Shown here: positions 55,900 to 59,785 of the stretch, one piece after another
How the letters are laid out: every line of letters begins with the position of its first letter
How positions within the stretch are numbered: position 1 is the first letter of the stretch
Assembly: GCA_035653615.1 (NCBI GenBank)
Contig: DASRBN010000044.1
Coordinates: forward strand, 124,001 to 188,000
Direction: 5' to 3'
Length of the DNA stretch: 64,000 nt
From: Ktedonobacteraceae bacterium
Lineage (GTDB): Bacteria > Chloroflexota > Ktedonobacteria > Ktedonobacterales > Ktedonobacteraceae
Position numbers and translations under genes: made by a program
The notes under the pieces: generated by a model
Database searches by the model: none
What the model was told of the DNA's origin: nothing
Seen by the model: the letters and a program-made list of their open reading frames with translations, nothing else

Positions 55900-57207
55900 T
55901 TATGGGGTCAGTCGCGCCAGGTCACGCGGGAACGTGGTAGCGAGCCGGATGTTGGGAACGCCAGTAAGCTGCATGAGCAGGCGTTCGAGTCCGATGGCAA
56001 AGCCCCCGTGAGGAGGCATGCCGTAACGGAAAGCTTCCAGGTAGCTCTCGAATGGCTCAAGCGGCAGGTTGGCTTTCTCCAACGCGGCAAGGTAGTCGGC
56101 GTAGCGATGAAGCCGCTGCCCACCGGTAACCAGTTCCGTTCCCCTGAAAAGCAGGTCGAAGGAGTTCGAGTACGCTGGTCGCTCAGGGTCCGGGTGCGTA
56201 TAGAATGGCCGCTTCACCATCGGATAGCCGGTTACGAAGAGGAAGTCGCTGCCGAACTCCTGCCGCGCCCATTCACCCAGCCAGCGCTCATCCTGGGGCG
56301 ACAGGTCGGGTTCGCCTCGTACATCGACCTTATGTTGCCGGAAGATCAACTCCTGCGCCTCTGAGAAGTGAATGTGCGGGATCTGCGCAGGCACCTCTGG
56401 CAACTGGACACGCAGCAAGTCGAGTTCGGGCGTATACCGCTCGCGAAATTCATTCAGGGTGCCGGCAATCACGTCTCTGAGCAGCGCCATCACCGTGAAA
56501 TGGTTCTCGATAAAGCCAGACTCTACGTCCAGGCTGACATACTCATTGATATGGCGCGTCGTGTCATGCGGCTCGGCACGGAAGACCGGCCCGACCTCGA
56601 AGACTCGCTCAAAGACGCCAACCATGATTTGCTTGTAAAACTGTGGACTCTGCGCCAGGTACGCGGCCCGTCCAAAGTAGTCCAGTTGAAAAACGTTAGC
56701 GCCGCTTTCGGTCGCGGAGGCGACGATCTTCGGCGTTTGAATCTCCGTAAAGTTCCGCGCGGTCAGCGTGGAGCGGAAACCGGCCATGGCTCCAGCTCCC
56801 AGGCGCAGGATGGCGCGGCGTGATGGATGGCGGTTGGTGACAACGGCGTGATCGAGCAGCGTCGTGATGTGCGCCGAGAGCCTCGGCTTGTTCAAGGGCA
56901 CCGGTGGCGCCTCTGTTACGGGCGTGATGACCTCGATCCGCAAATCGTGCAGTTCAATGCCGCCCGGCGCCTGGGGCATGGCAACGACCAGCCCCTCAAC
57001 GGAAATGACGCTTTCGACACCTGCCTCTTGTTCTTGCAATGGAGCAAGTTCGGGCGCAGTTTCGGCAACCGCCTGAATTGTTCCCCAGCCGTCACGAATG
57101 ACGAGAAAACTGACGCCGCCCAACTGGCGCAGCGAATGTAGCCACCCGGCTACGCGGACGCGCTCACCTCGATGCGCGCCGGCTTCGATGGTACGAATAC
57201 GTTTCAA
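55900..57207 (-). CDS. aspS: Aspartyl-tRNA synthetase, archaeal/non-discriminating type
   Basis: 435 residues from TTG 57207, with AAAGGAG 7 nt upstream; this gives the normal length, while the longer frame to 57411 runs through the leader. The anticodon-binding OB-fold comes first (GERVRVAGWLHSLRQLGGVSF), then class II motifs: TEIQTPKIVASATESGANVF, FRAEPHDTTRHINEYVSLD (motif 2) and GFAIGLERLLMQLTG (motif 3). The short form without the bacterial insertion is the archaeal-like type, which often also charges tRNA-Asn. It is controlled by a T-box leader at 57436-57764. Whether it is discriminating needs a test. Confidence 0.93.
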   Translation of the reverse strand: MKRIRTIEAGAHRGERVRVAGWLHSLRQLGGVSFLVIRDGWGTIQAVAETAPELAPLQEQEAGVESVISVEGLVVAMPQAPGGIELHDLRIEVITPVTEAPPVPLNKPRLSAHITTLLDHAVVTNRHPSRRAILRLGAGAMAGFRSTLTARNFTEIQTPKIVASATESGANVFQLDYFGRAAYLAQSPQFYKQIMVGVFERVFEVGPVFRAEPHDTTRHINEYVSLDVESGFIENHFTVMALLRDVIAGTLNEFRERYTPELDLLRVQLPEVPAQIPHIHFSEAQELIFRQHKVDVRGEPDLSPQDERWLGEWARQEFGSDFLFVTGYPMVKRPFYTHPDPERPAYSNSFDLLFRGTELVTGGQRLHRYADYLAALEKANLPLEPFESYLEAFRYGMPPHGGFAIGLERLLMQLTGVPNIRLATTFPRDLARLTP

Positions 57208-57238
57208 AGAAAAGCTCCTTTCGAGTCTCAAATGTAGA

Positions 57239-57295
57239 ACTGCGAACAGGTCTGCCGTCTCAGGTGAGGAAGTGTGCCCCGGCAGACCTCGCAGT
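57239..57295 (-). promoter_or_regulatory. Hairpin just upstream of aspS
   Basis: On the minus strand ACTGCGA + GGTCTGCCG (57295-57280) pairs with CGGCAGACC + TCGCAGT (57257-57239), with a 3-nt bulge in one arm. It stands between a 14-codon acidic frame and the aspS SD. No T-tract follows. Confidence 0.4.
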
Positions 57296-57307
57296 CCCGC
57301 TGGACTC

Positions 57308-57352
57308 TCAGACACCTTCCTCGATATCATTGTCGTTCTCGTCGTCGGCCAT
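57308..57352 (-). CDS. Possible 14-residue Asp/Asn-rich leader peptide
   Basis: ATG 57352 with GGAG 5 nt upstream opens MADDENDNDIEEGV and stops. Six of 14 residues are Asp or Asn, four with the Asp codons GAC/GAT and two with Asn codons AAC/AAT, in the leader of a synthetase that charges Asp (and perhaps Asn). Composition, SD and a following hairpin recall attenuation leader peptides. It is short, so chance cannot be excluded. Confidence 0.35.
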   Translation of the reverse strand: MADDENDNDIEEGV

Positions 57353-57435
57353 AAGCTCTCCATTCCTTTCAGCCCACTCACGCGGGCTGATAACAGCGTG
57401 GTGGCTCCCAACGCGTCAGGCAGGCATAAGCATAA

Positions 57436-57471
57436 TAAAAAGCCCCCGTCCTATTGGAGGACGAGGGCTTT
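57436..57471 (-). terminator. Intrinsic terminator of the T-box leader
   Basis: Minus strand: AAAGCCCTCGTCC, loop TCCAATA, GGACGGGGGCTTT followed by TTATT. A 13-bp stem with a U-run, the expected terminator that competes with the T-box antiterminator. Confidence 0.85.
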
Positions 57472-57764
57472 GTTCATGCATGTACAAGCCTGTCGTGGTA
57501 CCACCACCATTCGCCCCTGCTCTAGCAAGGGCCTCGACCGGTTCCACTCGTGAGAGTAAACCGTTGCGCTATAACGGGCGCGTCCCGAAACCGGCTACTG
57601 CTTTTCTTCCGACAAAGATGTAGAACCTGGAAGAAAGGTTCACCGTCTGGCTCAGGGGTGTCATTTGAGTTGACCAGCGGCGGTGCTCTCAGCCTGGACA
57701 CCGCTCTCTGCTCGCCGGTAGGGTTCTCAATAAATCCCCATCATTGCCGTTTGCGTTTGATCTT
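57436..57764 (-). ncRNA. T-box riboswitch of aspS
   Basis: The leader starts near 57764 and ends in a terminator. The T-box sequence is TGGTGGTACCACGACAGG (57506-57489, minus strand), close to the family's TGGNACCRCG core that pairs with the tRNA acceptor end. The 5' part has a long stem I with AGAGAGC-type conserved pieces. A GAC triplet followed by A at 57662-57660 is the likely Asp specifier codon. Uncharged tRNA-Asp would stabilise the antiterminator and allow aspS expression. This is the well-known T-box mechanism; stem borders here are approximate. Confidence 0.85.
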
Positions 57765-57770
57765 GCTGCT

Positions 57771-57800
57771 ACTATATCATGAGATATGGACAGAGGTCAA
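57771..57800 (-). promoter_or_regulatory. Promoter of the T-box/aspS transcript
   Basis: Minus strand: TTGACC (57800-57795), 18 nt, TATAGT (57776-57771). It directly follows the stop of the WD40 kinase gene on the same strand. Confidence 0.6.
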
Positions 57801-57805
57801 GCGTT

Positions 57806-59785
57806 TTAAATTGGTTGCCACACCTGTACTGTATGGTCAACGCTGCCGGAGGCCAGCAACTTGCCATCGGGCGACCACGCGACGGCAGTAATGTAGCCGG
57901 TATGACCACGATAGCTGGACCTGGAATGGCGAGTGCCTGCATCCCAGATCTGCACCGTTTTGTCATTGCTACCGGAAGCAAGATACCTGCTGTCGGGCGA
58001 CCAGCACACAGTATTGATCGCGGCAGTTGGGTTATGGTGAACAAAGTATTTTCGACCCGTCATCGAGTCCCAGACCTGCATCGTTCTATCGTAACTGGTC
58101 GAGGCAATGCGCCTGCCATCGGGCGACCACATCAGGGCATCGATACGTTGAGAATGCCCCTTGAAGGTGAACTGGCCGCGCGAAGAGAGCAGAAAATTGG
58201 TGAAAAAAGAATTTTTATCTTTGCTGGGACTCCAGACCTGCACAGTTTTATCTTCCCCACCAGACGCGATGCGCTTGCCATCAGGCGCCCATCCTGCTGT
58301 ATGCACGGAGCCGGTATGACCGCGATACACAAACACATTCGCTCCGCTGAGCGTGTCCCAGACCTGCACCGTCTTATCCGCGCCCGCCGAGGCAATACGC
58401 TTGCCATCAGGCGACCAGCTTACTGCATTAACGGCCTGGGTATGGCCGCGATAGGTATAGACCGAGTTGCCGCTGAGCGCGTCCCAGACCTGCACCGTAC
58501 CATCATCGCCGCCTGAAGCGATATACTTGCCGTCGGGCGACCACGATACCGCATGTACCCTGCTCCAGTGACCACGAAAGATGATCACACTGTTGCCATT
58601 GGCGGCATCCCAGATACGCACCGTCTTATCGTAGCTGGCCGATGCTATATGGGTACCCTTTGGAGACCATGCGACGGATAGCACACGGCTGGAATGACCG
58701 GCGCAGATAAGGCGTGTATTGCTCTGCGCCTGTGGCAGCGCTGTTCGTTTAGGCGCCTTTGGTGCAGTGGGAACCTGCGCCTGTTGAGGAGGCTGGTAGC
58801 CAGCCGGTATGTTGGGAGCCAGGGGATGCGTTCTGCTTACCAGGTACTGTGTGGCGATGCTTTGCAGCTCCTGCTTGACGATGGCAATGTTGTCGGGCCT
58901 CTTATTGATATCTACCTCCAGCATACGCGTGATGAGCATTTCAAGCCGTCCCAATATAGGATGATGCTGCAATTGCAGGGGAGCGAAGTGAAATGGACTA
59001 TCGGACGGATCATTGCCGGACAGCATCTGGTGAAGAGTGGCTCCCAGACCGTAGATGTCGGCGCGGGGCGTCGTCTGCGCTCTGCCATACTGTTCGGGGG
59101 CAGCGTAGCCGGAGGAGCCGAGCGCGGTCGTATCTTTGGCCTGCCCTGGTTTGAAGTGCCGGGCAATGCCGAAATCGATCAGGTAGATATGCCCATGCGG
59201 GGTGAGCATGATGTTCGCGGGTTTGAGATCGCGGAAGATGATGGGTGGTTGCCGCATATGCAAATATTCAAGCACGGTGCAGAGCTGGATACCGATCTCC
59301 AGTACTTTTTCGACCGGGAGCTTTTTCCCATTCGCCTTATTGAGATGCTCCTCCATCGTTTCGCCTTCGATGAAGTCCATCACCAGGTACCAGCGTCCCA
59401 TGTCGGTGAACTGTTCGTAGATACGTGGGAGATTAGGGTGCGTCAGGCCGGCCAGCAGCATGGCCTCGCGGTTGAAAGCGGCAGTAGCCTCGGCAAGTTC
59501 CTGGGCACTGAGATTATTCTGGCTCATCTCCTTAATGGCGACGAGCCGGTTACCGAACTGGAGATCAGCGGCTTTATAGACGGCTCCAAAGCCTCCCTTG
59601 CCGACCTGTTGCAGGATACGATAGCGCTGCTTGAGCAGATGGTTGGAGACAAGCAATCCCGTACCAGACGAGACATACTTGCCGCCTTGCCTGCGTAGGG
59701 GTTGCCCGCACGCAAAGCAGAACGCCGCCTGCGAGCGATTAGCCGCCCCGCAAGCATCACAGAAAAATGGCGAAGAGAGAACCAT
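57806..59785 (-). CDS. Zinc-ribbon Ser/Thr protein kinase with seven WD40 repeats
   Basis: 659 residues. Order: zinc ribbon (CDACGAANRSQAAFCFACG, 9-27), PknB-type kinase (about 54-325) with GKGGFGAVY, ATP-binding Lys85 in LVAIKEM, catalytic loop FRDLKPANIM (Phe where His is usual), LIDFGIA and GYAAPEQYG. After a Pro/Gln-rich linker come seven WD40 units (GHxxxVxxVxWSPDG...VQVWD), a closed propeller. No membrane helix, so it is cytoplasmic. The propeller probably selects substrates or partners. A CheY-like gene lies upstream on the other strand. Confidence 0.93.
   Translation of the reverse strand: MVLSSPFFCDACGAANRSQAAFCFACGQPLRRQGGKYVSSGTGLLVSNHLLKQRYRILQQVGKGGFGAVYKAADLQFGNRLVAIKEMSQNNLSAQELAEATAAFNREAMLLAGLTHPNLPRIYEQFTDMGRWYLVMDFIEGETMEEHLNKANGKKLPVEKVLEIGIQLCTVLEYLHMRQPPIIFRDLKPANIMLTPHGHIYLIDFGIARHFKPGQAKDTTALGSSGYAAPEQYGRAQTTPRADIYGLGATLHQMLSGNDPSDSPFHFAPLQLQHHPILGRLEMLITRMLEVDINKRPDNIAIVKQELQSIATQYLVSRTHPLAPNIPAGYQPPQQAQVPTAPKAPKRTALPQAQSNTRLICAGHSSRVLSVAWSPKGTHIASASYDKTVRIWDAANGNSVIIFRGHWSRVHAVSWSPDGKYIASGGDDGTVQVWDALSGNSVYTYRGHTQAVNAVSWSPDGKRIASAGADKTVQVWDTLSGANVFVYRGHTGSVHTAGWAPDGKRIASGGEDKTVQVWSPSKDKNSFFTNFLLSSRGQFTFKGHSQRIDALMWSPDGRRIASTSYDRTMQVWDSMTGRKYFVHHNPTAAINTVCWSPDSRYLASGSNDKTVQIWDAGTRHSRSSYRGHTGYITAVAWSPDGKLLASGSVDHTVQVWQPI

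Follow-up and report, generated by a model that had tools for sequence, protein, structure and literature searches.

The aspS leader in the window, i.e. in the whole 64,000-nucleotide stretch of Ktedonobacteraceae DNA that was analysed, is probably a two-stage induction switch, in which a transcriptional T-box is followed by translational attenuation (we put the probability of this reading at roughly 0.7). Sequence comparisons establish the T-box, a conserved short frame that is rich in Asp and Asn codons, three helices termed S1, B and C, and a single such module per genome at the gene aspS2. A sequence-only reading of this DNA had proposed two amino-acid sensors in series upstream of an aspartyl-tRNA synthetase (AspRS) of the possibly non-discriminating type, and the comparative data argue for precisely this, with a T-box and a conserved mini-gene preceding a gene that is predicted to belong to that family.

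On the minus strand, the elements follow each other from 5' to 3' in the order promoter-like site, T-box, terminator, mini-ORF, strong hairpin and aspS. The individual features are, in coordinates of the window:

57771-57800, minus strand: sigma-70-like promoter TTGACC-18-TATAGT, 5' of the T-box, a consensus match only
57454-57753, minus strand: T-box leader from stem I to the antiterminator, matched by RF00230
57505-57494, minus strand: GGTGGTACCACG, within the T-box antiterminator
57660-57662, minus strand: specifier codon GAC (Asp) according to the RF00230 alignment, in the register found in relatives
57439-57471, minus strand: intrinsic terminator of the T-box
57358-57361, minus strand: Shine-Dalgarno sequence (SD) GGAG of the mini-ORF, read from the sequence
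57308-57352, minus strand: leader mini-ORF of 14 codons, conserved in relatives
57311-57322, minus strand: segment 1 (GAGGAAGGTGTC), the last four sense codons and 5' arm of the antisequestor helix S1
57301-57307, minus strand: C5', the stretch 3' of the mini-ORF stop codon, with the aspS SD flank (57229-57223) as partner
57280-57295, minus strand: B5', 5' arm of the strong hairpin B
57266-57278, minus strand: segment 2 (GGCACACTTCCTC), 3' arm of S1
57239-57257, minus strand: B3', 3' arm of the strong hairpin B
57223-57229, minus strand: C3', directly 5' of the aspS SD and partner of C5'
57215-57220, minus strand: aspS SD AAGGAG, read from the sequence
55900-57207, minus strand: aspS2, archaeal-type aspartate--tRNA(Asn) ligase, with a TTG start at a position common to relatives

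Just 5' of this leader ends a protein-kinase-like frame with WD40-type repeats (57806-59785, minus strand), the stop codon of which is near the promoter-like site.

The T-box with likely GAC specifier that had been read from the letters was recovered by the Rfam model RF00230, and the terminator noted with it is present as well. The match spans the full model (1-219) with an E-value of 5.8e-10 and a score of 50.4 bits, which is below the gathering score of 93, and the terminator consists of 14 base pairs and a T tail. In the source genome (G000), 18 T-boxes are found at E <= 0.001, 13 of which score below the gathering cut-off. Due to its E-value and the conserved specifier, the identity of the leader T-box is little in doubt: GAC occurs in the same register in all mini-ORF loci where the pattern can be read. 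The element combines a model match from stem I to the antiterminator with a cognate specifier and a competing intrinsic terminator, and is predicted to bind uncharged tRNA. Stem I with its GAC specifier, the T-box motif and the intrinsic terminator are shared with the synthetase T-boxes of RF00230. The difference is in the layout, as a T-box-controlled synthetase gene usually begins soon after the terminator, whereas the distance from the T-box motif to the aspS2 start is 200-417 nt in loci with the module, compared to 84-211 nt in loci without it. Other arrangements were seen as well. In two Chloroflexota metagenome-assembled genomes (L062, L063), two similar intrinsic terminators (CCCTCGTCCTCC...) stand in series between T-box and aspS2, with no mini-ORF, and one aspS2 gene of genus g6 (L025) lacks a mini-ORF as well as any T-box motif that could be recognised. 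In G000 itself, a tandem pair of T-boxes (contig C5:7454-8060) precedes a small LysW-like gene and an ATP-grasp-like gene, labels that are a guess from the translations.

The mini-gene with its own SD that had been noticed in the letters is confirmed as the frame MADDENDNDIEEGV followed by a stop codon, with GGAG at 57361-57358. The sequence-only reading had made this frame depend on its conservation in relatives, and there it is kept: an Asp/Asn mini-ORF is present at the equivalent position in 26 loci from four families of Ktedonobacterales (f1, f2, f3, f4), 24 of which were found via an AspRS2 search and two via an RNA model. These two loci, which the model had not seen, are blind finds (L167, MDDDDDTGDANPGEDA; L168, MDDDDDGDTNRRERA). 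Of the 18 AspRS2 genes in the family, 13 carry an Asp/Asn-rich mini-ORF in the interval from the terminator to the start. Over the 24 loci of the AspRS2 search, Asp and Asn account for 154 of 362 post-start codons, with 23.9 expected, and the ratio of Asp/Asn to Glu/Lys codons is 154:35. As the loci are related, the P values for the codon content of single loci are not independent, and three mini-ORFs with few such codons (Asp-Ala-Asn; L057-L059) are individually non-significant. Conservation and codon statistics together rule out a chance ORF. With an SD, a start codon and a run of cognate codons, this short frame has the make-up of an attenuator leader peptide, and its translation is predicted.

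Could the conserved frame instead encode a functional acidic micropeptide, or be part of a structural RNA that needs the GAY/AAY run as RNA, so that no codons are sensed at all? It is true that a small frame is conserved and that its last codons are under RNA-pairing constraint. However, the mini-ORFs vary in length from 9 to 21 residues after the start and are highly variable in sequence, with only the Asp/Asn content being persistent. GAC/GAT and AAC/AAT exchanges between mini-ORFs are synonymous, and of the 37 pairwise codon differences among five close leaders, 23 leave the amino acid unchanged, as compared to 17% when single changes are made at random. In leaders of genus g8, a different reading frame runs through the pairing segment. 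A micropeptide or codon-blind structural RNA thus appears very improbable. One further mini-ORF (MDSDDDDNAHD, L029) ends before segment 1, and segments 1 and 2 still pair over 12 bp at this locus.

Downstream of the frame, the strong hairpin that had been described ahead of the TTG start is present. The start itself is at 57207 and not at 57208, so that the coordinates of the sequence-only reading are correct to one base. Comparative sequence evidence indicates that this hairpin belongs, as one of its arms, to a switch that is conserved: either the mini-gene end pairs with a downstream segment or the stop-codon region pairs with the flank of the aspS SD. The first of these pairings is S1, formed by segments 1 and 2 (57322-57311 with 57278-57266); it comprises about 12 bp, interrupted by a single bulge. 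In the 20 leaders compared, 94% of the cells are paired, nine of 11 positions show two-sided changes, and none of 2000 between-species swaps of segment 2 matched the observed pairing. In the tool count, 90.3% are paired, which was reached in none of 500 shuffles, and slid controls gave 40-56%. MAFFT places B3' and segment 2 wrongly in some of the rows, for which the tool counts are conservative estimates. Segments curated by hand and controls by species swap served alongside these counts. Hairpin B was recovered independently by RNAalifold and has two-sided changes in 10 of 11 pairs, with segment 2 positioned in its apical loop. In helix C, the stop-codon region is paired with sequence that precedes the aspS SD and in part includes it (e.g. 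CCTGACGAAT with ATTCGTCAGG at L051); in the leader of the window itself, helix C is short. For all three helices, the pairing energies are better with own partners than with partners from other species, and 0 of 5000 permutations were as good. The element order of S1 and B is that of an H-type pseudoknot. Since segment 1 borders immediately on C5', there would hardly be room for S1 and C at the same time, and judging by this geometry, S1 would exclude C. In genus g8, there is no hairpin B, and the SD itself is the pairing partner of segment 2 (L033: GGTATGCTTCCTT with AAGGAGCATACACC). A role of segment 2 as simple anti-SD was considered for all lineages and rejected, being non-significant outside g8 (P = 0.06).

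These data also bear on the trivial explanation that the region is merely a non-functional spacer between terminator and gene. The module is indeed missing in some relatives, but 26 conserved loci, covariation and two blind finds refute a chance spacer, which can practically be dismissed.

How would the parts work together? In the first, transcriptional stage, uncharged tRNA-Asp would bind to the GAC-specified T-box and thereby prevent termination. In the second, translational stage, a ribosome would read the 14-codon leader peptide. Under a shortage of charged tRNA-Asp (or tRNA-Asn), the ribosome would stall early and leave segment 1 free to pair with the emerging segment 2, which would generate S1, possibly as an H-type pseudoknot with B. 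S1 would hold the stop-codon region off the aspS SD, so that the SD stays open and the synthetase can be made. With an ample supply of charged tRNAs, the ribosome would reach the stop codon and cover segment 1 while segment 2 emerges, B would form, and after release of the ribosome helix C would close over the SD flank and switch aspS off. What we infer in this scheme is that the ribosome stalls, that the steps follow a co-transcriptional order, that the SD is opened, and in which direction the switch works.

Model folding of partial transcripts fits such an attenuation. When the first codons are occupied by a ribosome, S1 is predicted to form in the nascent RNA of 19 of 20 leaders, and when the ribosome has reached the stop codon, hairpin B is predicted in 18 of 20. 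In the full-length free RNA, 1-6 SD bases are paired and S1 is absent in 18 of 20 leaders. At equilibrium, the two states are not separated by SD accessibility, as its mean was 0.51 with S1 forced versus 0.46 with the mini-ORF masked, and 12 of the 24 leaders showed the higher value (p = 0.66). The switch direction therefore rests on kinetics and homeostatic logic. Free full-length RNA favors the hairpin state, which exceeds the pseudoknot in stability, the energy of the latter being a rough estimate.

The paired SD and the position of C5' would also suit a translational coupling, in which ribosomes at the mini-ORF stop melt C and thereby expose the aspS SD, with the mini-ORF as a positive coupler. 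C5' shares bases with the stop codon or comes after it, so that a terminating ribosome would cover it, and the SD is partly paired in free RNA. Such a coupling would nevertheless leave unexplained why S1 is conserved by compensatory changes and why the frame is rich in Asp and Asn codons. Moreover, starvation would lower aspS translation and thus shut off the enzyme just when it is needed. We consider translational coupling unlikely and favor attenuation by early stalling.

For attenuation, it matters where the ribosome stalls. A ribosome stalled at the first Asp codon would usually not cover segment 1. Late stalls would work poorly, since the final Asp/Asn codon usually has its end 3 nt ahead of segment 1 and a ribosome held there would cover about half of this segment. 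The sequence-only reading had suspected a special role of tRNA-Asn. In its favor, 22 of 24 mini-ORFs contain Asn codons; on the other hand, Asp outnumbers Asn by 110 to 44 codons and usually comes first, and the specifier is GAC. Since Asp codons are mostly the first and a ribosome on the first one would usually not cover segment 1, Asp is the better-supported signal, with Asn as a possible one.

The series of two sensors had been thought to be new, and this claim has to be withdrawn, because the rtpA leader of B. subtilis already combines the two in principle, with a T-box ahead of a Trp leader peptide. Chen and Yanofsky (Science 2003; Mol Cell 2004) reportedly described that the T-box of rtpA controls transcription and its leader peptide rtpLP translation. 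The ribosome at the leader stop codon is said to block the nearby SD itself, and the product is said to be a regulator. To our knowledge, this Bacillus tryptophan system is the single parallel for a T-box and a leader peptide in series. The Chen and Yanofsky papers on rtpA/yczA (anti-TRAP) are cited in PMC11255114. Both leaders have the T-box first and then a cognate-rich leader peptide, so that uncharged tRNA is predicted to be sensed twice, and the same order of T-box, leader peptide and gene raises the question whether a ribosome terminating at the mini-ORF stop could directly block the aspS SD, without any RNA switch. In rtpA, the stop codon is a few nt before the SD, whereas the mini-ORF stop is 78-141 nt 5' of the aspS start, which is far beyond the ribosome footprint, and the space in between is occupied by three covarying helices. 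A direct occlusion is hence highly improbable. Further differences to rtpA are the conserved three-helix switch, the tRNA synthetase as target and the codons of two amino acids. The principle was therefore known; what appears to be new is the synthetase as target, the use of Asp/Asn codons and the architecture of the switch.

Attenuators such as those of the trp and his operons and of erm genes use cognate-rich leader peptides and competing helices, in erm with SD sequestration. The aspS2 module has such a cognate-rich frame and would resemble them in its competing helices and in a predicted erm-like SD sequestration, and differs by its site after a T-box and by the H-type pseudoknot topology of S1 and B. 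In Clostridium acetobutylicum, T-boxes reportedly control tRNA-dependent amidation (Saad et al. 2012, 2013), with a two-codon design in which two tRNAs are said to be read by one T-box. The aspS2 leader likewise ties T-box control to the Asp/Asn transamidation route, but here the task of a second reading would fall to a leader peptide that is translated and not to the same T-box. In a literature search of partial coverage, which is weak evidence, we found no paper on this leader, on Ktedonobacter together with T-boxes, or joining T-box, leader peptide and aspS.

The RNA model detected 18 sites in 47 genomes of relatives, one per genome in 18 of the 47 and all at aspS2, and none at other genes. 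No similar modules were apparent in the spacers of the other 17 T-boxes of G000, no known Rfam family matched the second module, and a repeat element is ruled out, as the 156-nt module is single-copy in the genome. Outside Ktedonobacterales, no mini-ORF was seen at aspS2 T-boxes of Chloroflexota and Actinobacteria, where the spacer is short as a rule. Several lineages have kept the T-box and lack the module, and presence and absence on the AspRS2 tree require at least five changes, many forks of that tree being weakly supported. This distribution is consistent with an old module that was lost several times.

What is the enzyme under this control? The aspS product is an archaeal-type AspRS2 of the family 'aspartate--tRNA(Asn) ligase' and scores above the curated cut-offs (538 bits versus 353 for NF003483, 382 versus 368 for TIGR00458). 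G000 encodes a second, bacterial-type AspRS of 603 residues. As the T-box scan of G000 found none on the contig of this bacterial-type enzyme, AspRS2 looks like an inducible second copy. A gatB match is present (of GatCAB, gatB alone was looked for), and no asnS match was found in this 95%-complete draft genome. AspRS2 and gatB without AsnRS would fit a predicted non-discriminating AspRS that feeds transamidation, which is an established route (PMC4206432). In genus g11, AspRS2 was not found, nor was AsnRS in the two members tested. In G019, G024 and G026, gatB was found and neither AspRS2 nor AsnRS was, and for this reason their bacterial-type AspRS is probably non-discriminating.

More tentatively, and perhaps with somewhat less than even chances, the leader may be a two-input gate on the second AspRS, in which the T-box reports the charging of tRNA-Asp and the leader peptide responds to Asp-tRNA-Asp as well as to Asn-tRNA-Asn, with a pseudoknot-versus-hairpin readout that is set co-transcriptionally by the position of the ribosome. 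If this were true, asparagine shortage alone could raise the output per transcript. At two aspS2 loci without mini-ORF module (L027, L052), the T-box specifier is AAC (Asn) and not GAC, which hints at a link to Asn but is suggestive only; with a two-input gate, these AAC specifiers would represent an alternative solution to Asn sensing.

T-boxes have mostly been studied in Firmicutes, and the hosts of the module, the Ktedonobacterales, are soil bacteria. The aspS2 leader would be a second, apparently independent case of a T-box and a leader peptide in series, kept across one order of Chloroflexota and outside Firmicutes, and we know of no earlier case on a tRNA synthetase. It may serve as a natural system for what a second check adds, be it tightness, noise or Asn sensing, and its many covarying versions would permit a comparison of how a translating ribosome sets an RNA switch.
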